From Oscillatoriales cyanobacterium (GTDB lineage: Bacteria > Cyanobacteriota > Cyanobacteriia > Cyanobacteriales > Laspinemataceae): a stretch of DNA of 64,000 bases. Both the position numbers and the translations under genes were made by a program. Shown piece after piece: positions 926 to 55,135 of the stretch (position 1 is its first letter; each line of letters opens with the position of its first letter). Under the pieces are notes generated by a model. The model made no database searches and was not told where the DNA came from. It saw only the letters and a program-made list of their open reading frames with translations. The DNA lies in NCBI GenBank assembly GCA_011390955.1, contig JAABRM010000007.1:62001-126000 (forward strand), written 5' to 3'.

Positions 926-2377
926 TTATAGCTTAATGTATTCTTGAAATATCCGGTTGATTTGAAACAATCCTCGCCCCCTCTCTGATATTTTTTCGAC
1001 TAAGCCCCGTCTGCCTAAAGATTGCATAGCTTCGGTTAATTCTGATTTGGAAAATTCCCGTAATCCAGATGCTTGAGAAATATCTACCGCTTCATTCTGG
1101 CTGGCTAACCAGGATATCACTTTTTGCTCTAACTTTGATAATCGCTCTAAGTGGTATGCTAAAATTGGTTTTAAGTCGCCGATAAATATCTCCTCTCTCT
1201 GCCCCCCTTTTTTAAGGGGGGGTTGGGGGGGATCTCCTAAAAATAAGGAAACGCTACCATCAAATAGTTCTAATATCGTTGAGGCGATGATATTTAACCA
1301 GGTGGGATGACCTTGATAGAGGTTGATTAATTCTGGCCATTTTTCTGAGTCGGTTAATCCGTGTTCTTTCAAAATTTCTTCAGCATCGGATTCTAATCCT
1401 TTGAGGTTTAAGGTGCGGGTGGATTGTTTTTCTGCTGCTAAGGTAGCAATTTCTCTGGGTTTTTCCCAACTCAGGAGAATCACGCAACTTTGATGATGGT
1501 TTTTGGCGATTTGTTGCCAGAATTGGCCATATTCTTTATGTTCGGTTAAGTATTGACCGGCTAATTCACCGCTTTGAAAAAGATTTTGCAGGTCATCGAG
1601 GATGACTAAACAGCGCGAGTTACGAAAGTAATCAATTATTGTCGGTAATGGGGGCGGTTGGGACTGGGCAAAAAATTGTTGCAGTTGGTTTTTTAGGGAG
1701 GAAAGGGTGGGAGTTTCTGTGAGACTTCGCCAAATAATATAGTCAAATTCAGGCTTGATTTGTTCGATGAGTTGCCTGGTTAGTAAGCTTTTGCCAATGC
1801 CACTTAATCCATAGATGGTGATTAAGCGGATCTGGTCTTGTAAGATCCACTGTTTGAGGGTATTTAGTTCGGTGGTGCGGTTGTAAAATTCCGTGAGGTC
1901 TGGGGCGTCGGTTAAGTCAATAATGGGTGAAGAATTTTGGGTGGGGGAAGAGTCGGGGGAAGAGTTAGGGGAAGAGTCAGGAGAAGAGGGCGATCGCTGT
2001 TGAGTATCTTTAATAGTTTGTACAAACTGATGACCAATATTAACAGTATCAAATTGATTAACAGTATCAACATCAACTTGTAAACAGTGACCGGATTGGG
2101 GAGATTGAGAAACCCGATATTTTTTCTCTACCTTGGAACGAAAATTATACTTTTTCAGGTCTTCTCCTAATTCTTCCCGTAACTTTTCCCATAACTTAGC
2201 GGCTTCTTTTTTAACGTGAGATTCACGACAATTATTATATTCTTTAGCAATTTGAGAATACTTTTTCCCTGACCACACACCCTTGAGTATGGCTTCCTCT
2301 ATAGGCTTGAGAGGTTCGCCGGTTTTCTCAAGGATCAGCTTTTCAGCCCACTCTAACACTTCTTCAATATTTTTCAT
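926..2377 (-). CDS. Small STAND NTPase: N-terminal HTH plus NB-ARC, no sensor repeats (copy 1)
   Basis: 483 residues. Residues 1-90 form a helical HTH-like domain starting MKNIEEVLEWAEKL, of the kind found at the N-terminus of cyanobacterial NB-ARC/WD40 proteins. A Ser/Pro-rich linker (about 128-151, SSPDSSPNSSPD type) leads to an NB-ARC ATPase with Walker A GLSGIGKS (190-197) and Walker B CLVILDD (256-262). A winged-helix-like tail ends at EYIKL. No WD40, TPR or pentapeptide repeats follow, so it is short for the STAND class. Residues 382-392 (DPPQPPLKKGG) are a translated dispersed DNA repeat. The NB-ARC core is nearly identical to that of the protein at 50141-51499, while the HTH domains differ. 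It is divergent from the gene at 2541 across a decamer array. Role as a signal-gated regulator is inference. Confidence 0.85.
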   Translation of the reverse strand: MKNIEEVLEWAEKLILEKTGEPLKPIEEAILKGVWSGKKYSQIAKEYNNCRESHVKKEAAKLWEKLREELGEDLKKYNFRSKVEKKYRVSQSPQSGHCLQVDVDTVNQFDTVNIGHQFVQTIKDTQQRSPSSPDSSPNSSPDSSPTQNSSPIIDLTDAPDLTEFYNRTTELNTLKQWILQDQIRLITIYGLSGIGKSLLTRQLIEQIKPEFDYIIWRSLTETPTLSSLKNQLQQFFAQSQPPPLPTIIDYFRNSRCLVILDDLQNLFQSGELAGQYLTEHKEYGQFWQQIAKNHHQSCVILLSWEKPREIATLAAEKQSTRTLNLKGLESDAEEILKEHGLTDSEKWPELINLYQGHPTWLNIIASTILELFDGSVSLFLGDPPQPPLKKGGQREEIFIGDLKPILAYHLERLSKLEQKVISWLASQNEAVDISQASGLREFSKSELTEAMQSLGRRGLVEKISERGRGLFQINRIFQEYIKL

Positions 2378-35012: not shown

Positions 35013-37316
35013 ATGCTGGTCTGTCCCAAATGTCAATATAAAAATCCCATTAACCATAAGTTTTGTCAAAAGTGTGGCACTTCCCTGACCCAAAAAGCCT
35101 GTCCAGAATGTGGCACTCAGATTAATCTCAGCGCCTTGACTTGCGACCATTGTGGCGCCAAAACGGGCAAAACTTTGTGGGGCATTATTCTGCCCAAAAC
35201 TAATCCCATTACACCATCAGCGGTGGTGCCATCTGAATATGAATCCACCGAGGTAGAGACTGAGGAACTCTTTCCTATTAACCCACCGATGCTTAATCAG
35301 ACGGATATCTCGTCTGAAACCAACAACATCGATGTACTGAGTGCTTTTGAAGTAGAGGAAAATACTCCAGGGTCTCAGTTGGTGACAAAAATCGGTCAAC
35401 CGGATGAAGAGACAAAACCAATTGAGGCAGAACCCTCGACCAATATAGAAAATACAGAAGATATAGAAGATGCAGAAAATACAGGAGATATAGAAGATGC
35501 AGAAAATACAGAAGATATAGAAGATACAATGGCTGCGGCTGTTGTGGTAGAATCCGCAGAAACGGTTGTGGAAACTGCGGTTGAAGATGTATTGACCCCA
35601 CAGACTCCAGCCCTAGAAACTTCAGCCCTAGAAACTCCAGCCCTAGAAACTTCAGTTCTAGAAACTCCAGAAACCAGCAAACCGGACATTTCTATTGCCT
35701 CTGGGGACTATTTAGACGATCGACACCGTTATCAACTAATTTCTCAAATCAGCGCCAAGACTTCATCTGGTGACTGGCAAGGCGGTGTATTAGATTGTCA
35801 ACCCTTGCAAATTTCCCCTTTGCTAACTTCAATTTCTGCCTCATCAACTGCCTCAAGGTCTGGTTCTACTACAGTGATGCAACCCTCGATCGACTTGATT
35901 CCCGCGATCGCACAGCCCTACTTGCAGCTTCGCACCCAATGGGCGCCCATAATTCCCTTAATCCATGATGCTTGGGAAAATCAAGACCATTCCATTTTAC
36001 TAATTGAAGACCGCTCAAACTTGCCTCGGTTAATTGACCAATGCCATCAACTCACCCAGGTAGAACCATTGGATTTACAACCATTCATCCAATGGTTTCA
36101 ACAAATGACCCAATTATGGCAAGTCTTGACCCCGTTGAAATGCCGTCAAAGTCTGCTGAACATCGAGAATTTATTAGTGGATCAAATTAGTGGGGGGTTA
36201 CGTCTGCAACGACTCTATGGAGATGCCACCGACGCCCCAAAATTGGCGGAGTTAGGCAAAATTTGGCGACAACTACTACCCATCGATAGCAACGATTCAG
36301 CGTCGAACGATCCAGAAATCAACCAACGGATTAATGATCTTGTGAATGATGTTGTGAATGAAAATATTCTCACTGCGGATAAATTATTAGCCACGATTCA
36401 AGCGATGTTGCATCCGCAACGCTCCGGCGCGATCGCCCATCCCAAGCATGATAACAATGAACTCAGCCACGGAGATGACCTCTCGACAATCGTAATGACT
36501 CAAGGCTTAAGGAATTTAGAAGCGATCGGCGCCACTGATGTCGGTCAACAACGGAATCACAATGAAGATGACTTTGCCATCAAAACGGACATATTCAAAT
36601 TCCAAACCTCGCGCGATCGCTCTCTCCAATTCCGGGGCATCTATATTGTTTGTGATGGCATGGGTGGACATGACGGCGGTGAAGTCGCCAGCGCCCAAGC
36701 GGTCAAAACCCTACAAGAATACTTTGCCACTCACTGGCAAGATCCACTCACCCTGCCCGACGAAGCCACTATCCGCCAAGGCATCCTACAAGCCAATCAA
36801 GCCATCTACGACCTCAACCAAGAAGAAGTCCGTAGCGGCAGCGGTCGCATGGGCACCACCTTAGTCATGGCTTTAGTCAACCAAAGTGAAATTGCCGTCG
36901 CCCATGTCGGAGATAGTCGCCTTTACCGACTCACCAAAACTCACGGTCTGCAACAACTCACCGTCGATCATGAAGTGGGACAGCGGGAAATTCAGCGGGG
37001 AATTGACCCAGAAATCGCCTATAGTCGCCCTGACGCCTACCAACTCACTCAAGCCCTTGGCCCCCGGCCCGAAAATTTTGTGCAACCGGACATCCAGTTT
37101 TTTCCCATAGAAGAAAACTCTTTATTTATCCTCGCCTCTGATGGTCTCACCGATAATGACTTGCTAGAAAATCATATTTCCACCCATCTAGAACCCTTAC
37201 TAAATTCAGACAGCGACCTCAACCAAGGGGTCAAAAATTTAATCACCTTAGCCAATGACTACAATGGTCACGACAATATTACCGCGATCGCGATTCGGGC
37301 AATGGTACAACAATAG
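35013..37316 (+). CDS. PP2C serine/threonine phosphatase with N-terminal double zinc ribbon
   Basis: 767 residues. Two zinc ribbons (Cys4/7/18/21 and Cys30/33/44/47) are followed by an acidic low-complexity region (about 145-225) with repeats such as ENTEDIEDAENTGDIEDA and ALETSALETP. A middle domain (about 230-480) resembles the pseudo-kinase-like region of such proteins. The PP2C catalytic domain (about 505-765) has GQQRNHNEDDF, IYIVCDGMGGHDGGE, MGTTLVMALV, VGDSRLYRL and DGLTDNDL, which supply the metal-binding aspartates. It is followed by an FHA-kinase gene, an opposing phospho-signalling pair. Confidence 0.9.
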   Translation: MLVCPKCQYKNPINHKFCQKCGTSLTQKACPECGTQINLSALTCDHCGAKTGKTLWGIILPKTNPITPSAVVPSEYESTEVETEELFPINPPMLNQTDISSETNNIDVLSAFEVEENTPGSQLVTKIGQPDEETKPIEAEPSTNIENTEDIEDAENTGDIEDAENTEDIEDTMAAAVVVESAETVVETAVEDVLTPQTPALETSALETPALETSVLETPETSKPDISIASGDYLDDRHRYQLISQISAKTSSGDWQGGVLDCQPLQISPLLTSISASSTASRSGSTTVMQPSIDLIPAIAQPYLQLRTQWAPIIPLIHDAWENQDHSILLIEDRSNLPRLIDQCHQLTQVEPLDLQPFIQWFQQMTQLWQVLTPLKCRQSLLNIENLLVDQISGGLRLQRLYGDATDAPKLAELGKIWRQLLPIDSNDSASNDPEINQRINDLVNDVVNENILTADKLLATIQAMLHPQRSGAIAHPKHDNNELSHGDDLSTIVMTQGLRNLEAIGATDVGQQRNHNEDDFAIKTDIFKFQTSRDRSLQFRGIYIVCDGMGGHDGGEVASAQAVKTLQEYFATHWQDPLTLPDEATIRQGILQANQAIYDLNQEEVRSGSGRMGTTLVMALVNQSEIAVAHVGDSRLYRLTKTHGLQQLTVDHEVGQREIQRGIDPEIAYSRPDAYQLTQALGPRPENFVQPDIQFFPIEENSLFILASDGLTDNDLLENHISTHLEPLLNSDSDLNQGVKNLITLANDYNGHDNITAIAIRAMVQQ

Positions 37317-45583: not shown

Positions 45584-46666
45584 ATGACTACTACTCTGCA
45601 ACAACGCGAAAGCGCTTCTCTGTGGCAGCGCTTCTGCTCCTGGGTCACAAGCACCGACAACCGCATTTATGTGGGCTGGTTCGGCGTCCTGATGATCCCC
45701 ACCCTGCTGACCGCAACTATCTGCTACATCATTGCTTTCGTCGCTGCTCCTCCAGTGGACATCGACGGGATCCGCGAACCTGTGGCTGGTTCCTTACTGT
45801 TAGGCAACAACATCATCTCTGGTGCGGTTGTTCCTTCCAGCAATGCGATCGGTCTGCACTTCTACCCCATTTGGGAAGCGGCTTCTCTCGATGAGTGGCT
45901 GTACAATGGCGGCCCATATCAGTTAGTGATTTTCCACTTCCTGATCGGCATCTTCTGCTACATGGGTCGTGAGTGGGAATTGTCCTACCGCTTAGGTATG
46001 CGTCCTTGGATCTGCGTCGCTTACAGCGCTCCCGTAGCTGCTGCTAGTGCCGTGTTCCTGATCTACCCCATCGGTCAAGGTTCTTTCTCCGATGGTATGC
46101 CTCTGGGTATCTCTGGAACCTTCAACTTTATGTTGGTGTTCCAAGCTGAGCACAATATCCTGATGCACCCCTTCCACATGTTGGGTGTAGCCGGTGTGTT
46201 CGGTGGCGCTTTGTTCTCCGCCATGCACGGTTCTTTGGTGACTTCTTCTTTGGTGCGTGAAACCACCGAAGTGGAAAGCCAAAACTATGGTTACAAGTTT
46301 GGTCAAGAGGAAGAAACCTACAACATCGTTGCCGCTCACGGTTACTTTGGTCGTCTGATCTTCCAATACGCTTCCTTCAACAACAGCCGCTCTCTGCACT
46401 TCTTCTTGGGTGCATGGCCGGTGATTGGGATTTGGTTCACCGCTCTGGGCGTGTCCACTATGGCCTTCAACCTGAACGGTTTCAACTTCAACCAATCTAT
46501 CGTTGACTCTCAAGGTCGCACCATCAACACCTGGGCCGACGTGATCAACCGCGCTAACTTGGGTATGGAAGTCATGCACGAGCGCAACGCTCACAACTTC
46601 CCCTTAGATTTGGCGGCTGGCGAAGCTGCTCCTGTGGCTTTGAGTACACCTCAAATCAACGGCTAA
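45584..46666 (+). CDS. psbA: Photosystem II D1 protein, standard type, copy 2
   Basis: 360 residues, identical to copy 1 except for LSTPQING at the C-terminus. The DNA is identical for most of the gene; differences cluster in the last 250 nt, and the 3' flanks differ, which points to ongoing gene conversion of the 5' part. All water-oxidation ligands and Glu130 are present. Multiple high-light psbA copies support fast D1 turnover. Confidence 0.98.
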
Positions 46667-48965: not shown

Positions 48966-49179
48966 GTTTTAGATATCCTTTACTGATTTGTTAACTGTTA
49001 CTCAACACCGATCAGCTTACCGGCAACAGAAGCCTTCAAGAATGCCCGATGACTATATATAATAAAGTTATATATATATATATAATTATAATTATTCCTT
49101 ATAACAAGCGATATTGGGAACGGACATTAATGGCATGGGGCAGCGGGCGATAAGGTTTGGATGCGATCGGGTTCCATTG

Positions 49180-49409
49180 TCCACGCTCTGGGTGTTTCTA
49201 CGATGGCCTTCAACCTGAACGGTTTCAACTTTAACCAGTCGATCGTTGATTCTCAAGGTCGCGTTATCAATACCTGGGCTGACGCGATCGACCGCGCTAA
49301 CCTGGGTATGGAAGTAATGCACGAGCGCAACGCTCACAACTTCCCCTTAGATTTGGCAGCCGGTGAGTCCGCTCCTGTGGCTTTGAGTACACCTCAAATC
49401 AACGGCTAA
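49180..49409 (+). pseudogene. psbA 3' fragment (last ~76 codons)
   Basis: From about 49180 the frame matches standard D1 from near residue 285 to the end: [20 protein letters not shown] through [19 protein letters not shown] and PQING. Upstream sequence to 49160 is unrelated, so no start or promoter is present. The 3' flank is a mosaic: the first 32 nt after the stop match copy 1, and the terminator matches copy 2. The coding part is little decayed, so this is a recent or conversion-maintained fragment. Confidence 0.92.
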
Positions 49410-50140: not shown

Positions 50141-51499
50141 CTAAATGTACTTTTTAAAGACAGGATTTAGCAGAAAGCGCGATCGCCCTCCCGCGATCAC
50201 TTTTTCGGCTAATCCTCGTCTGACTAAAGATTGGATAGCGTCCCATAATTCCGATTGGGAAATTTCGCTTAATCCAGGTTGTCGTGAAATCTCTACCGCT
50301 TCATCTTCTGAAAATCTGGATATGACTTTTTTTTCTAACTCCGATAAACGGTCTAATTGAGATTCTATAATTGGGGATAAGTCGCCGATAAATATCTCCT
50401 CCTCCTTAAGCCCCCCCTTTCCAAGGGGGGGTTGGGGGGGATTCCCTAAAAATAGGGAAACGCTGCCGTCAAATAGTTCCACGATGGTTGAGGCGATAAT
50501 ATTTAACCAGGTGGGATGACCTTGATAGAGGTTGATTAATTCTGGCCATTTTTGTGAGTCCGTTAATCCGTGTTCTTTCAAAATTTCCTCAGCATCCGCT
50601 GATAATCCTTTCAGGTTTAAGGTGCGGGTGGATTGTTTTTCTGCTGCTAAGGTAGCGAGTTCTCTGGGTTTTTCCCAACTCAGGAGAATGACACAACTTT
50701 GATGATGGTTTTTGGCGATTTGTTGCCAAAATTGGCCATAGTCTTTATGTTCGGCTAAGTATTGACCGGCTAATTCACCGCTTTGAAACAGATTTTGCAG
50801 GTCATCCAGGATGACTAAACAGCGCGAGTTACGAAAGTAATCAATTATTGTGGGTAATTGGGGCTGTTGGGACTGGGCAAAAAATTGTTGCAGTTGGTTT
50901 TTTAGGGAGGAAAGGGTGGGAGTCTCTGTGAGACTTTTCCAAATAATATAGTCAAATTCAGGCTTGATTTGTTCGATGAGTTGCCTGGTTAATACGCTTT
51001 TGCCAATGCCACTTAATCCATAGATGGTAATTAAGCGGATCTGGTCTTGTAATATCCACTGTTTGAGGGTATTTAGTTCGGTGGTGCGGTTGTAAAAGTC
51101 CGTGAGGTCTGGGGCGTCGATTAAGTCGATAATGGGTGAAGAATTTTGGGTGGGGGAAGAGTTAGGAGAAGAGGGCGATCGCTGTTGTTCACTACAAATA
51201 TTGATATTACCTATTTGTAAGCAATTAGCATGATTTTCAGATATTTCTGCTTGTTCTAACACAGAAAACACATTCGACTTTTTAACATCTTCTCCAACCA
51301 CATCAGAAAGAAGTTTCCATAACTTCCACGCTTCTTTTTTCACATGATCGTAGCTTCTCTCATTATTTTCAGCAATTTCATAATAATCCTGATGTTGCCA
51401 AATGCCCTCTAAGATAGATTTTTGTAGCGATTCAAGATGTTTTCCGGTTTTAGCGAATACCTGTTCATCAGTCCAGTTTAAAACTTCTTGAATATCCAT
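50141..51499 (-). CDS. Small STAND NTPase: N-terminal HTH plus NB-ARC (copy 2)
   Basis: 452 residues from the ATG at 51497-51499 (MDIQEVLNWTDEQVF), chosen because it aligns with MKNIEEVLEW of copy 1. An in-frame upstream ATG at 51553 would run through the decamer array. The HTH region (1-85) is related to copy 1 but clearly divergent. The NB-ARC core from PIIDLIDAPDLTDFYNRTTE onward is nearly identical, with Walker A GLSGIGKS and Walker B CLVILDD. It also carries an in-frame dispersed repeat (NPPQPPLGKGG, DNA 50411-50442) and a shorter Ser/Pro linker. It has no sensor repeats. Divergent from the peptide gene at 51740. Confidence 0.87.
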   Translation of the reverse strand: MDIQEVLNWTDEQVFAKTGKHLESLQKSILEGIWQHQDYYEIAENNERSYDHVKKEAWKLWKLLSDVVGEDVKKSNVFSVLEQAEISENHANCLQIGNINICSEQQRSPSSPNSSPTQNSSPIIDLIDAPDLTDFYNRTTELNTLKQWILQDQIRLITIYGLSGIGKSVLTRQLIEQIKPEFDYIIWKSLTETPTLSSLKNQLQQFFAQSQQPQLPTIIDYFRNSRCLVILDDLQNLFQSGELAGQYLAEHKDYGQFWQQIAKNHHQSCVILLSWEKPRELATLAAEKQSTRTLNLKGLSADAEEILKEHGLTDSQKWPELINLYQGHPTWLNIIASTIVELFDGSVSLFLGNPPQPPLGKGGLKEEEIFIGDLSPIIESQLDRLSELEKKVISRFSEDEAVEISRQPGLSEISQSELWDAIQSLVRRGLAEKVIAGGRSRFLLNPVFKKYI

Positions 51500-51527
51500 A
51501 GGACAAAGTGGGGGTATGCAACGATAA

Positions 51528-51630
51528 TCCCACTTTATCACACTTTTTCCCACTTTTTCTCAAAAATCCCACTTTTTCCCACAAAATTGGTGATGTAAAT
51601 AATTGTAAAATGCCACTTTATCCCACTTTT
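51528..51630. promoter_or_regulatory. Phased decamer direct repeats TCCCACTTTT in the divergent promoter region
   Basis: Seven units of a 10-nt motif start at 51528 (TCCCACTTTA), 51538 (TCACACTTTT), 51548 (TCCCACTTTT), 51567 (TCCCACTTTT), 51577 (TCCCACAAAA), 51611 (TGCCACTTTA) and 51621 (TCCCACTTTT). Steps are 10, 10, 19, 10, 34 and 10 nt, so most units share one helical face. Same design as 2419-2477 but with C instead of T at the fourth base and T-rich ends. A likely operator for the STAND HTH or another factor controlling both directions. Confidence 0.65.
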
Positions 51631-51739
51631 ATGACTATACAATCATCCAGTTTTATACTAAAATGATTAACCATACAACGAAAGAGTTTCTAGCAAACTA
51701 GAGCGTACTTTCGACCTTTCATCAAGTAGGTTTACTACT

Positions 51740-51910
51740 ATGTTACAAAGCAAAATAGCAGCGGCTCGAGTCACAGAAAAGCAAAACAACACTGCAATTG
51801 ATGAATCTAAGGGCATTGCTCGGCAAGATAACCACAGTGAATGGTATCCGATTGAGGTAGGAACAGAACGAGCAAATCTTATGGCTTGTCCCAAAGGTGC
51901 GCTTTTTTAA
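51740..51910 (+). CDS. Candidate RiPP precursor peptide (56 residues)
   Basis: ATG at 51740 to TAA at 51908-51910. Leader-like charged N-terminus (MLQSKIAAARVTEKQNNTAI), then a core-like C-terminus with HSEWYPIEVG, one Cys and the end LMACPKGALF. The reading frame lies between the decamer array and a radical SAM/SPASM gene 128 nt downstream, on the same strand; a hairpin at 51990 sits between them. Size, single Cys, aromatic-rich end and order (precursor then maturase) fit a RiPP precursor. The first six residues are shared with the 147-residue protein at 2541, which has the same position in the paralogous locus. No family match is recalled. Confidence 0.6.
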   Translation: MLQSKIAAARVTEKQNNTAIDESKGIARQDNHSEWYPIEVGTERANLMACPKGALF

Positions 51911-51989
51911 GCAACGATTAAGATTGTACGATCATCTAAAAAGGTGAGAAACATATAAAAGCAAATTACTATGCAGTAGATCCAATAGA

Positions 51990-52012
51990 GGACGCGATCA
52001 TATGTCGCGTCC
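51990..52012 (+). terminator. Hairpin between peptide and radical SAM genes (attenuator-like)
   Basis: GGACGCGA (51990-51997), 7-nt loop, TCGCGTCC (52005-52012), then TTACTTT, 26 nt before the radical SAM start. A leaky terminator here would give more precursor mRNA than maturase mRNA, as seen in many RiPP operons (inference). Confidence 0.55.
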
Positions 52013-52038
52013 GTTACTTTCTAAGAGAGGAATTATAT

Positions 52039-53166
52039 ATGTTAGTCCATCGGCATATTGGCAATGTAGATTTCGCAATCGATCCATCCCAGCCTGTTGG
52101 GATTTGTTTAAAAACAAATGAAAATGATCGATTAAAATTTTCAAATATTAAAGCTTTTATTGATTGGATTATAGCCAGAGCGAGAATGCCTGCTACTCTT
52201 CAATGGGAGTTGCTTTCAGTCTGCAACTTTAAATGTCGCTTTTGTTATATGGTGGGACATACCGAACCTACGATATTTTCGTCGGAACGGGCTTTTAAAC
52301 TGATTGATGAATTTGTGGATGCGGGGGTTGTTCAAGTCATTTTAACTGGCGGAGAGTGTCTGATCCATCCAAATTTTACAGCCATTTATGAAAAACTCCG
52401 CTTGGCAGGTATTATTGTATCTGTTTTCACTAATTTAGAAAAGTTAACCGCCGAGCATATCGAAATATTTAAGCGTTATCCACCTTATGTGATTGAGGTG
52501 AGCATTTACGGTCACGATGAAGATAGTTACGAAAGAGTCACTGGACGGCGAGCTTTTAACCAGGTACTCCACAACATAGAGATTCTTCGCGACTATGGCT
52601 TTAATCTTCTTTGTAAAACTCCAATAACTACTCTGACCCATAATTCTATTGATTGGATATATAATTGGTGTCAAAATCGTAACCTGGAATATTTGGCAGA
52701 TCCAAGTATTAAGGATGGTCTTGACGGTGATGATTTATCAGACTTTTCCCTAAAATTTGAAGAATATTACGCTGCCGAAAAACTTAGGCTTCACTTAGCG
52801 AAAAACCTAATTAACTCTACGAATTTAGAAAATAGAGATCCGTCTCGTGTTTTTAGCTGCGGAGTTGGTAAAGTAGGTGCTTACATTAACTACGATGCTA
52901 CTCTTTCTCCCTGTTCAAGCATTCGGAATCAGCGCTTCAATCTGATGGAACTTTCCTTCGCTGATGCTTGGCAACAGTTAGTTAATAATATACAAGCACA
53001 GGAAAATTTAGTTATCAGTGGATGTAATCCGAATTGTTCTGCTAGATCAATATGTAAGATGTGTCCCGCAGTAGCTTTCCGTGATGAAGAAGGAAACTAT
53101 AGAGTTAATCCAGCTTATTGTGAGCGACAAATTGCCCTGGCAAAGGTTCTTGCTATTAGTTCTTAG
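52039..53166 (+). CDS. Radical SAM/SPASM peptide maturase
   Basis: 375 residues, start preceded by GAGAGG. The radical SAM cluster motif is CNFKCRFC (Cys62/66/69) with TGGE at 103-106 for SAM binding. The C-terminal SPASM domain has seven Cys: 274, 292, 329, 333, 339, 342 and 361, in the order C-x17-C, CxxxC, CxxxxxC, CxxC, C, enough for two auxiliary [4Fe-4S] clusters. SPASM enzymes modify ribosomal peptides (thioether, C-C or C-O crosslinks, epimerisation). Residues 1-50 precede the barrel and may bind the leader, though no clear RRE fold is seen. Partner is the 56-residue gene upstream. The chemistry cannot be predicted from sequence alone. Confidence 0.9.
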   Translation: MLVHRHIGNVDFAIDPSQPVGICLKTNENDRLKFSNIKAFIDWIIARARMPATLQWELLSVCNFKCRFCYMVGHTEPTIFSSERAFKLIDEFVDAGVVQVILTGGECLIHPNFTAIYEKLRLAGIIVSVFTNLEKLTAEHIEIFKRYPPYVIEVSIYGHDEDSYERVTGRRAFNQVLHNIEILRDYGFNLLCKTPITTLTHNSIDWIYNWCQNRNLEYLADPSIKDGLDGDDLSDFSLKFEEYYAAEKLRLHLAKNLINSTNLENRDPSRVFSCGVGKVGAYINYDATLSPCSSIRNQRFNLMELSFADAWQQLVNNIQAQENLVISGCNPNCSARSICKMCPAVAFRDEEGNYRVNPAYCERQIALAKVLAISS

Positions 53167-53526
53167 TTCTGCTATTGGGAATAGGTACTTTCCCGATCGC
53201 GATCGCCTTCTTTATTCAATTCTCAATGCGGGGGCGATCGCCCAAGCAGAGCAGACAAGAAACCCGGTTTCTTCAAGAAACCGGGTTTCTTTGTTTCTGG
53301 ACAATTTTGAGGCAGAAGTGGGAGTAATGCCCCCAGAGGAGTTTCTCTCGTTTCAGGTTTCCCGGTTCCAGATTTTAGGGAAATTTCCTGGTTTTAGCTG
53401 GAACTGTTACGCTCGATTTGAATCACCTAAATAGCTTGAGCGTGAGTAATTTCTGCCATAGTCAAGCCACCCGTGACAAACTTGAATAAATATGATTAAA
53501 TAGATGAGGAGCAATTTTTCAAAAAA
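53167..53526. other. Intergenic region with palindrome copy 2
   Basis: 360 bp. HIP1-rich at the left, then the GAAACCCGGTTTCTT palindrome with its shared tail at 53259-53310. The open frame crossing this region is built on the repeat and on out-of-frame radical SAM codons and is not a gene. Confidence 0.65.
53259..53289. repeat. Perfect palindrome GAAACCCGGTTTCTT, copy 2
   Basis: Identical to 3020-3050 in both 15-bp arms, with the same tail TTTCTGGACAATTTT. It lies 92 nt after the radical SAM stop and could end that transcript. Confidence 0.8.
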
Positions 53527-53769: not shown

Positions 53770-54013
53770 TATTAGAGTAAAAAATGTTCTGATATATGAA
53801 GATGCTTTTAGTGTTGAATTAATGGATGGACGCACTCTCACCGTTCCTTTAGCTTGGTTTCCTCGACTATTAAAAGCTACACCCGAACAGTTAGAAAAAT
53901 GGGTGATTTGTGGCGGCGGTTATGGGATTCATTGGGAAGAAATTGATGAGGATCTTAGTACCGAAGGATTATTACGCGGTGCTCCCGCGCCTCGGAATCA
54001 AACGCGATTATAA
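53744..54013 (+). CDS. DUF2442 protein (toxin-antitoxin-like pair, second gene)
   Basis: 89 residues. VLIYEDAFSVELMDGRTLTV, then PLAWFPRLLKATPEQLEKW and YGIHWEEIDEDLSTEGLL are the DUF2442 core, related to nuclease-inhibitor-like proteins. Coupled to DUF4160. Confidence 0.88.
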   Translation: MTTLAIQTDIRVKNVLIYEDAFSVELMDGRTLTVPLAWFPRLLKATPEQLEKWVICGGGYGIHWEEIDEDLSTEGLLRGAPAPRNQTRL

Positions 54014-54018
54014 GGCAA

Positions 54019-54049
54019 GAAACCCGATTTCTTTAAGAAACCGGGTTTC
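54019..54049. repeat. Palindrome GAAACCCGATTTCTT, copy 3
   Basis: One arm differs by a single base (GATTTC for GGTTTC) from the copies at 3020 and 53259; the same TTTCTGGACAATTT tail follows. Confidence 0.75.
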
Positions 54050-54067
54050 TGCGTTTCTGGACAATTT

Positions 54068-54146: not shown

Positions 54147-54299
54147 TCTATATGCATTTTCGGTGCTGGCATTTTAGGACAGAAGTGGGAGGCGCGATCG
54201 CATATGGTGGTTTTCTCTCCTTAACATTTTCTGGGCTTATCCGTGAACCATCGAGCATCTAATAGCGATCGCACCGAGGGTGACAATCTCAACCCCACC

Positions 54300-54695
54300 T
54301 TACGGGATGAAAAGGCGACTTACGCCCATATAGACATCAATATCAATCACAATTTCCACCAGACGAACTGCACAACGCTGCCGATATTCTGAGTCATTCA
54401 ACAAGCGGTCAGCATCACTAATGGTAATCACGGGAAGTGATGTAGACGTAATTTCCTCACGCATCACTTGTTCCAGAGAGTTTTCGCCTTTCATACTCCG
54501 ATTCGCTGTCAATAAAATCATCTGATTTGATTGAGCCAACTGCCAAACAACCCGATCGTCACTATTGATTGACAGGCCGATTTCCTCAAAAGTGATAAAT
54601 CGAATAAACACCCAATCTAGCCAGCCACTACTCACAATACTGCCCGACAGAAGGAGCGCGTGTCCTCTTAAATTACGATCGACTAAAAAATTCAT
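54300..54695 (-). CDS. PIN-like (DUF5615-type) toxin candidate
   Basis: 131 residues. NFLVDRNLRGHALLLSGSI at the start, EIGLSINSDDRVVWQLAQ and MILLTANRSMKGENSLEQVM follow the Asp-rich PIN/Mut7-C-like pattern of DUF5615 proteins. It overlaps the DUF433 gene by 4 nt. DUF5615 and DUF433 form a recognised toxin-antitoxin-like pair in cyanobacteria. Confidence 0.78.
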   Translation of the reverse strand: MNFLVDRNLRGHALLLSGSIVSSGWLDWVFIRFITFEEIGLSINSDDRVVWQLAQSNQMILLTANRSMKGENSLEQVMREEITSTSLPVITISDADRLLNDSEYRQRCAVRLVEIVIDIDVYMGVSRLFIP

Positions 54696-55066
54696 AGCTG
54701 AGACTGAAACTTTGCTTTGGCTGCTTGAAGTTTTGCCCGAATCTCTTCTTGGCCTGGTTTCGGTGGCATAGCGGCAATTTTAGCAATTAAATCCCGATTT
54801 TTTTCTTCATAATACAGCCGCAGTTCCTCCGCTTCCCGAAGCACTTGATGATACTCAGCTTCAACCGTAGGGCGATTGGCCTCAATATAAGCTAAAGCCG
54901 CGTTAATTTGTGCTTCTGTCAGGTCAAATAATCCCCTGATAAATTTAGGCGGATATTGAGCGGTTACATAGTCCATAATGTCGTAGATCGTAATCCGTGT
55001 ACCGGCAATGGTTAACCCTCGTTCTGTACGGATAATCCCTGTTTGTTCCTTGGATATGTTTGTCAT
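54692..55066 (-). CDS. DUF433 antitoxin candidate with helical extension
   Basis: 124 residues from the ATG at 55064-55066; a TTG start five codons upstream is less likely. IIRTERGLTIAGTRITIYDI, then MDYVTAQYPPKFIRGLFDLT and INAALAYIEANR are DUF433, an HTH protein. The C-terminal 45 residues are a charged helix (REAEELRLYYEEKNRDLIAK) that may hold the toxin. Confidence 0.85.
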   Translation of the reverse strand: MTNISKEQTGIIRTERGLTIAGTRITIYDIMDYVTAQYPPKFIRGLFDLTEAQINAALAYIEANRPTVEAEYHQVLREAEELRLYYEEKNRDLIAKIAAMPPKPGQEEIRAKLQAAKAKFQSQL

Positions 55067-55135
55067 AATTTTTCCCAACAATCTGTTGGCTGAAAGTCAT
55101 TTATCTTTTAATACCATATATTTTAATCCAAAAAA

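Follow-up and report, generated by a model that had tools for sequence, protein, structure and literature searches.

The FxSxx-COOH systems of actinobacteria combine an AP-ATPase STAND protein, a precursor with a variable body and a conserved C-terminus, and a radical S-adenosylmethionine (SAM)/SPASM gene (PMC7159879). Their STAND protein carries TPR (in some cases TIR) domains, is itself described as an effector-like partner, and is accompanied by a metallopeptidase (PMC7159879). Here we describe a cassette of similar content in a filamentous Oscillatoriales cyanobacterium, in a stretch of 64,000 nucleotides of contig JAABRM010000007.1 (positions 62,001 to 126,000; assembly GCA_011390955.1) that is called the window below and numbered from its first letter. 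The cassette consists of a STAND protein with an N-terminal helix-turn-helix (HTH) domain, a 56-residue open reading frame (ORF), and a radical SAM/SPASM enzyme. We consider it rather likely that it is a mobile, small operon for a ribosomally synthesized and posttranslationally modified peptide (RiPP), with a STAND regulator of its own that acts on it through phased operators. The preliminary description of this DNA held that no described system joins these parts; this was too strong, as FxSxx-COOH systems couple a STAND protein, a small peptide, and a radical SAM/SPASM enzyme (PMC7159879).

As in FxSxx-COOH systems, a STAND gene, a small peptide with a more conserved C-terminus, and a radical SAM/SPASM gene share one neighbourhood. 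Unlike the actinobacterial proteins, the cassette STAND is a bare HTH-NB-ARC protein without TPR, is encoded divergently from the operon, and is associated with an operator array; against NF040586, the FxSxx-system TPR model held by NCBIfam, it scores 15.4 of 300. The window peptide lacks the FxSxx-COOH end, and the window enzyme is not FxsB (TIGR04269 is absent from its best 25 NCBIfam matches), whereas a near-FxsB/YhhB enzyme is found at two paralogous loci, L066 and L077.

MalT is an activator that works on phased direct-repeat decamers. SARP-type regulators use repeat units of 10 to 11 bp, which usually overlap the -35 box (PMC5930380). The cassette resembles MalT and SARP/AfsR/PimR in the fusion of a STAND NTPase to a DNA-binding domain and in the phased direct repeats of ∼10 to 11 bp per monomer beside a -35 region. 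Unlike MalT and AfsR, its STAND protein has a sigma-70-region-4-like HTH at the N-terminus and neither TPR nor another sensor domain, and ∼30 paralogues occur per genome, each with a private array. A dedicated regulator beside a small precursor gene and a radical SAM gene is also seen in streptococcal radical SAM RiPP (RaS-RiPP) loci under Rgg/SHP, where a regulator-precursor-radical SAM layout is common (PMC13361665); Rgg differs from the cassette STAND in being a peptide-binding RRNPP regulator, with no repeat array family and no engine exchange. The solved structures closest to the window enzyme are those of the radical SAM/SPASM or twitch peptide maturases SkfB (by sequence and fold) and SuiB (by fold), but no N-terminal RiPP recognition element (RRE) of their kind was recognised in it and the substrate sequence is unrelated. 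Polymorphic toxins and type I restriction specificity genes pair a constant engine with exchangeable specificity modules. The STAND family described here likewise appears to combine a homogenised constant part with exchangeable modules; the former exchange an effector or target-recognition domain, whereas the STAND family would exchange a DNA-binding domain, an operator, and the downstream operon.

Conservation of the cassette

The minus-strand STAND gene (50141-51499) is divergent from the 56-residue ORF (51740-51910, plus strand), which is followed, after a gap of 128 nt, by the radical SAM/SPASM gene (52039-53166, plus strand). This layout had been described previously, and ORF coordinates and Pfam matches bore it out. 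A genome of another family (G548) contains all three genes in the same order, with identities of 62 to 65% (STAND), 68% (peptide), and 84% (radical SAM). The homologous DNA forms a single blastn block (window 50145-53168; 79% identity over 3065 aligned positions), and the flanks of this block are unrelated between the two genomes. Judged from these alignments, the trio is a real cassette that moves as one, because a genome of a different family has the three genes in the same order, in one block with unrelated flanks.

The distribution of the trio was examined in 39 relatives, in samples of 386 (phylum), 391 (order), and 390 (class) genomes, and in 62 genomes of family f2, with overlap between samples. 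The radical SAM gene was rare in the genomes searched, with one intact orthologue (G548) and two remnants. The peptide, sought in the 391 genomes of the order, was found only in the 2 genomes with an intact radical SAM gene, so that its frame is conserved in 2/2 genomes with an intact orthologue. All four known copies or remnants of the enzyme gene (window, G548, G157, and contig C1 of the window's own genome, G000) adjoin a STAND gene or STAND remnant. Both associations, of the frame and of the STAND gene with the enzyme gene, are as the preliminary description had anticipated. The G157 remnant retains parts of the STAND 3' end and of the radical SAM gene as well as a downstream block corresponding to window 54283-55067, in unchanged order. 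On contig C1 (locus L032), a STAND gene is 84% identical in DNA to that of the window over the NB-ARC part, and its divergent side carries the last 60 codons of the radical SAM gene at 98% identity plus a further scrap, with a small inverted-repeat element between. At ∼7300-7740 of L032, the radical SAM 3' end is split by an inverted-repeat insertion of ∼135 bp that resembles a miniature inverted-repeat transposable element, and the tail adjoins a STAND gene with a truncated GTPase cargo.

The 56-residue putative precursor (MLQSKIA...DNHSEWYPIEVGTERANLMACPKGALF) had no family match in Pfam or NCBIfam. Between the window and G548, the ratio of nonsynonymous to synonymous substitution (dN/dS) was 0.36 for the whole frame, with 0.55 for its first half and 0.19 for its second, and the sole length change is in frame. 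These values indicate that the frame is under purifying selection, which is strongest in the C-terminal half. The conserved parts are MLQSKIA and DNHSEWYxIEVGTERANxMxCPKxALF; conservation is highest at the C-terminus, which has one Cys and several aromatic residues, and the two peptides end in CPKGALF and CPKNALF. A conserved leader and a variable core, as predicted earlier, were not seen: in the two sequences, conservation covers the first 7 and the last 27 residues, with variation in between. A strong hairpin, GGACGCGA...TCGCGTCC (51990-52012, plus strand), lies between the peptide and enzyme genes. Its stem is kept in G548, the loop and flanks differ, and the z scores in the two genomes are -3.0 and -5.0. 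In other RiPP operons such hairpins raise the level of precursor over that of enzyme, and by analogy this one may do the same.

The enzyme, a putative peptide maturase of 375 residues, matched PF04055 (4.5e-22). Its ten Cys residues, a CX3CX2C motif (C62/C66/C69) and seven C-terminal Cys at 274, 292, 329, 333, 339, 342, and 361, are all present where the preliminary description had placed them and are kept in G548. The SPASM Cys are spaced in a slightly unusual way (CX17C, in which Ala replaces the customary Gly, and then CX3CX5CX2C), and the SPASM Pfam score of 10.9 is under the cut-off of 21.5. The best four NCBIfam scores were 58 to 70 bits, far under cut-offs of 325 to 515, so the enzyme falls outside every named equivalog. 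An identity as viperin, heme d1, or MoaA enzyme was rejected on context and on scores well short of the cut-offs. The best PDB match by sequence was SkfB (2.8e-13), and the top fold matches of an AlphaFold2 model were SkfB and SuiB, both RiPP maturases, at ∼14 to 19% identity in structural alignments. A scan of genome contigs with the radical SAM protein gave 15 pattern stretches and no confirmed relative, and a plasmid search returned distant radical SAM proteins only, at <60% identity.

The STAND protein has an HTH at residues ∼1 to 85 and an NB-ARC NTPase domain at ∼125 to 350 (Pfam, 5e-10). C-terminal of NB-ARC, Pfam gave no recognisable domain and no TPR or other repeat family, in line with the earlier statement that sensor repeats are lacking. 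Translation probably starts at ATG 51499 (452 residues) rather than at GTG 51553, because a MDIQ/MEIQ start is common to the family and no start codon lies further upstream in the G548 orthologue; with this start, the decamer array described below would be wholly intergenic, between two start codons. NB-ARC was matched in 33/33 family members, and the N-terminal HTH is of the sigma-70-region-4 type, with a Sigma70_r4_2 match in 6/33. In an AlphaFold2 model, the N-terminus is helical, with a confidence score (pLDDT) of mostly >90. MalT (8bob) was among the PDB fold matches of the protein; sequence searches of the PDB with the HTH returned designed coiled coils and chance matches only.

Private arrays of candidate operators and a probably mosaic STAND family

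Six direct decamers (≤2 mismatches, plus strand) lie between the STAND and peptide genes, at 51528, 51538, 51548, 51567, 51611, and 51621. With a degenerate copy, TCCCACAAAA, at 51577, the spacings are 10, 10, 19, (10), 34, and 10. The first three (51528-51557) are TCCCACTTTA, TCACACTTTT, and TCCCACTTTT, of which the second and third occur at the same offsets in G548; the fourth, TCCCACTTTT, and the degenerate copy (51567-51586) are conserved there, as are the offsets of the last two, TGCCACTTTA and TCCCACTTTT (51611-51630). In all, five decamers are at identical offsets in the G548 orthologue (+38, +48, +67, +112, and +122). An inverted operator-like copy, CAAAGTGGGG (51504-51513, minus strand), is beside the STAND start, and a similar AAAAAGTGGCG is present in G548. 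Thus, of the seven phased decamers reported earlier, the phased array itself is real and the count is now six direct, one inverted, and one degenerate. Counted as 8-mers, seven copies of the CCACTTTT type are present, compared with a maximum of 6 and a mean of 2.8 in 60 dinucleotide shuffles. A search of the own genome for decamer pairs found this promoter and two weak places only, so the motif is private and not a genome-wide box. A candidate promoter for the peptide operon, ATGACT-17 nt-TATACT (51631-51659, plus strand), begins where the last decamer ends, which thus abuts the candidate -35 box.

In three genomes of the genus, the STAND protein had at least 28 to 30 matches per genome, including itself (E ≤ 1e-10), a count in which not every first-look candidate was scored. 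Forty loci around paralogues, picked by similarity to the window STAND and drawn mainly from one genus plus four other genomes, were fetched and oriented together with the window, L030, L032, and L106, and their divergent sides were read. By a heuristic detection, a phased array (≥3 units with 9- to 11-nt spacing) was present in 34/43 STAND promoters, compared with 7/630 control tiles in the window and 11/842 elsewhere in the loci. These controls (∼1%) ruled out background frequency as an explanation. The sole strong phased array in the control scan that is not at a STAND gene, with ATACAGAA units, is at window ∼35300-35600.

The array unit differs between groups of loci: TCCCACTTTT at the window, AAATCCTACC at L049-L051/L071/L086, TTTTCGTACT at L032/L048/L052/L085, AATATCCGAC at L067/L080, ATTTCCGAC with a period of 9 at L065/L068/L082, and yet other units elsewhere. 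Promoter similarity tracks recognition-helix identity when NB-ARC identity is removed (partial rank correlation, 0.28; 0/2000 permutations); for the reverse, promoter similarity against NB-ARC identity with the helix removed, the correlation was 0.10 (202/2000 permutations). In these comparisons the recognition helix co-varies with the array. In ∼20 loci, the cargo promoter has a candidate -35 box, identified by consensus match only, that begins 0 to 10 nt after an array unit. The AATATCCGAC arrays are unusually long (13 units at L067 and 11 at L080, with 10-nt spacing) and lie between the STAND gene and a gene for a secreted Cys-containing protein of 157 to 158 residues.

The cargo divergent from the STAND paralogues differs at most loci. 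It includes P-loop GTPases (MMR_HSR1/AIG1), a UvrD-like helicase, a GIY-YIG protein, secreted small proteins, a putative GG-type leader with a C39-like peptidase, and a Nif11-like peptide (identified by eye) with a weak Coq4-like match. Several cargo sets are radical SAM operons (L030, L066/L077, L069, and L084). L066 (in genome G002) and L077 (in G000) encode twin 58-residue peptides, a YhhB/FxsB-type cyclophane maturase that scores just under curated cut-offs, and an α-ketoglutarate-HExxH hydroxylase; this set is likely a three-residue cyclophane RiPP operon. The set at L030 (7946-9681), in a sister species, has an independent STAND gene, peptide, and radical SAM/SPASM enzyme in the layout of the window cassette; the enzyme is 27% identical to that of the window, and the 60-residue peptide ends in SICGCEGTCDACENY, making L030 a second candidate RiPP of the same design. 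L069 has a radical SAM enzyme plus a weak GNAT match, and L084 has a 35-residue peptide followed by a radical SAM enzyme. In each of G000 and G002, 3/33 radical SAM matches are in the STAND cargo position, with ∼0.3 expected (binomial P of ∼0.004 per genome, assuming that this position covers 1% of the genome); the two counts are not independent, as some loci are common to both genomes.

Close paralogues are 86 to 97% identical in NB-ARC and 35 to 48% identical in the HTH, and sliding identity has a sharp border near residues 100 to 120. Between the window STAND and those of L032, L048, L049, L052, and L071, NB-ARC windows are ∼76 to 100% identical (86 to 93% overall) and HTH windows 30 to 60%. 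Compared with the G548 STAND, the HTH is 76 to 83% identical and NB-ARC 46 to 80%. Synonymous divergence for the window-paralogue pairs is 0.18 to 0.26 in NB-ARC and ≥1.3 or saturated in the HTH; in three G002 pairs tested, it is 0.06 to 0.14 and 1.6 to 2.8, respectively. Plain conservation of NB-ARC was rejected as an alternative to recombination, since synonymous sites too have diverged little in this domain but strongly, or to saturation, in the HTH. In HTH trees, genes cluster across families according to array and cargo, and in NB-ARC trees they cluster by genus. In approximately unbiased (AU) tests, which used quick trees, a simple model, and groups chosen after seeing the alignment, the NB-ARC data rejected the HTH clades window plus G548 (4e-7), L048 plus L085 (6e-52), and the AAATCCTACC group (2e-6), and the HTH data rejected the NB-ARC clade (P = 2e-73); the pair L032 plus L052 was not rejected (0.14).

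The simplest reading of these alignments and trees would be that NB-ARC recombines or undergoes gene conversion among resident paralogues and that the HTH, operator, and cargo travel together. A broader model gives filamentous cyanobacteria ∼30 STAND genes per genome, with a shared, gene-converted engine and private sets of HTH, operator, and cargo operon, the last often being a RiPP or another conflict or signal module; new cargo would recombine in together with its HTH and operator, and the window trio would be one such cartridge. We regard this model as slightly short of an even chance. L032, with the engine on one side and the 98% identical radical SAM tail on the other, is consistent with a scar of cartridge replacement.

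Some features of the window touch on this family or on recombination. A second HTH-NB-ARC STAND gene (935-2374, minus strand), which is locus L071, has a AAATCCTACC-type phased array and a different small cargo gene; its protein is 90% identical in NB-ARC and 40% identical in the HTH to that of the cassette. The psbA genes mark the window as cyanobacterial. A fragment matching the 3' end of psbA (D1 protein) is near the cassette (49161-49409), and complete psbA copies are at 45584-46666 and in a homologous region of contig C1, which gives the neighbourhood a recombination-prone look. On the opposite flank of the cassette, palindromic repeats AAGAAACCCGGTTTCTT...AAGAAACCGGGTTTCTT, which also occur in other loci, are at 53260-53300 and 54010-54060 and are a possible recombination substrate.

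Proposed mechanism and alternative explanations

A mechanism can be proposed from the sequence. The 56-residue peptide would be the substrate of the adjacent radical SAM/SPASM enzyme, which would probably install a crosslink or another radical modification in the HSEWYxIEVGTERANxMxCPKxALF block. The divergent HTH-NB-ARC protein would bind the TCCCACTTTT decamers head to tail, with array occupancy set by ATP/ADP-gated oligomerisation; from the unit abutting the -35 box it would help RNA polymerase and turn the peptide operon on, and units beside the STAND start would provide autoregulation. The hairpin would keep precursor in excess over enzyme. In the ∼30-member family, recombination would homogenise the NB-ARC engine, and HTH, operator, and cargo would stay together as an exchangeable cartridge. 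Gene content, conservation, synteny, coding selection, conservation of the array, covariation of HTH and array, and conflict between the HTH and NB-ARC trees are what the sequences show; DNA binding, activation in preference to repression, modification of the peptide, and a biological role are what we infer.

The RiPP interpretation is suggested by the single homology block shared with another family, by the restriction of the peptide to genomes with an intact enzyme gene, and by purifying selection on its frame. The nearness of the enzyme to SkfB and SuiB in the PDB and the conserved hairpin point the same way, as do the recognisable RiPP set at L066/L077 and the proportion of radical SAM genes in STAND cargo position in two genomes. 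Control by a dedicated regulator is argued for by the conserved position of the array, by phased arrays at most STAND promoters, and by the tracking of array by recognition helix, and the conflict between HTH and NB-ARC trees suggests that the cassette and its regulator come from a family of exchangeable cartridges. Several points weigh against this interpretation. The promoter matches the consensus at only 9/12 positions, and the same scan found none in G548; activation and repression suit the layout about equally. The only two intact peptides known do not suffice to tell leader from core. The enzyme has no named equivalog, its best NCBIfam scores include heme, MoaA, and SbtM models, and the confidence of its AlphaFold2 model is modest (pLDDT, 65). 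The cassette showed no PqqD-like RRE for recognition of a leader peptide, and neither an exporter nor a peptidase.

The trio could instead be a conflict or defence device, in which the STAND protein, an immune switch first and a regulator second, would detect invasion and, once activated, release the modified peptide as a toxin or alarm signal. Such a role has been put forward for FxSxx-COOH systems and for further NTP-dependent conflict systems of multicellular bacteria, in which STAND proteins are central (PMC7159879). The family described here is expanded and varies between relatives, and GTPases, helicase and nuclease-like genes, and neighbours of the toxin-antitoxin type are among its cargo. 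The N-terminal domain, however, is a sigma-70-region-4-like HTH and not an effector, and sensor repeats are absent. PADLOC defence models gave only weak PDC-S27/PDC-S01 matches, over the NTPase (best, 7e-5), and the covariation of arrays with the HTH is explained by a transcription role. We think a defence device unlikely; if the STAND protein regulated a defence peptide, this would suit either interpretation.

It is distinctly improbable, in our view, that the enzyme makes a cofactor or modifies another protein, and that the small ORF encodes a regulatory or unrelated small protein. Heme b synthase, NirJ, and MoaA are among the profile matches of the enzyme besides peptide maturases, and an RRE domain is missing, but SkfB and SuiB are what it matches best in the PDB, the peptide is confined to genomes with an intact enzyme gene, and the part of it that is most conserved is the C-terminus with its Cys and aromatic residues. 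The layout of a small ORF followed by a radical SAM gene is also repeated at L030, L066/L077, and L084. That the decamers are ordinary short tandem repeats with no operator role seems scarcely credible: cyanobacterial genomes are rich in short repeats, and the unrelated array near 35300-35600 is an example in the window, but the STAND-associated motifs are private to each HTH type, their position is conserved across families, and such arrays are tens of times commoner at STAND promoters than elsewhere.

For the joining of STAND, radical SAM, and peptide genes, there is partial precedent. In open-access papers, these genes are combined in FxSxx-COOH systems, and nothing beyond these was found on STAND-controlled RiPPs or on gene conversion of NB-ARC in cyanobacteria. 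Nor was a description found there of a bare HTH-NB-ARC protein as a dedicated regulator, of private arrays across a paralogous family, or of engine/cartridge mosaicism. The cassette is a defined RiPP candidate with its own regulator and a precursor conserved in two genomes. It also yields a search rule, as the cargo divergent from these HTH-NB-ARC genes is enriched in radical SAM operons, with further uncharacterised modules among it. Should the cartridge model hold true, a cell could acquire operons by the tens, each wired independently and with little cross-talk, and each genome would offer ∼30 natural HTH-operator pairs on closely related engines from which rules of DNA recognition and STAND gating could be learned. 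The family would then provide a prokaryotic example of a constant STAND engine onto which specificity modules are recombined.

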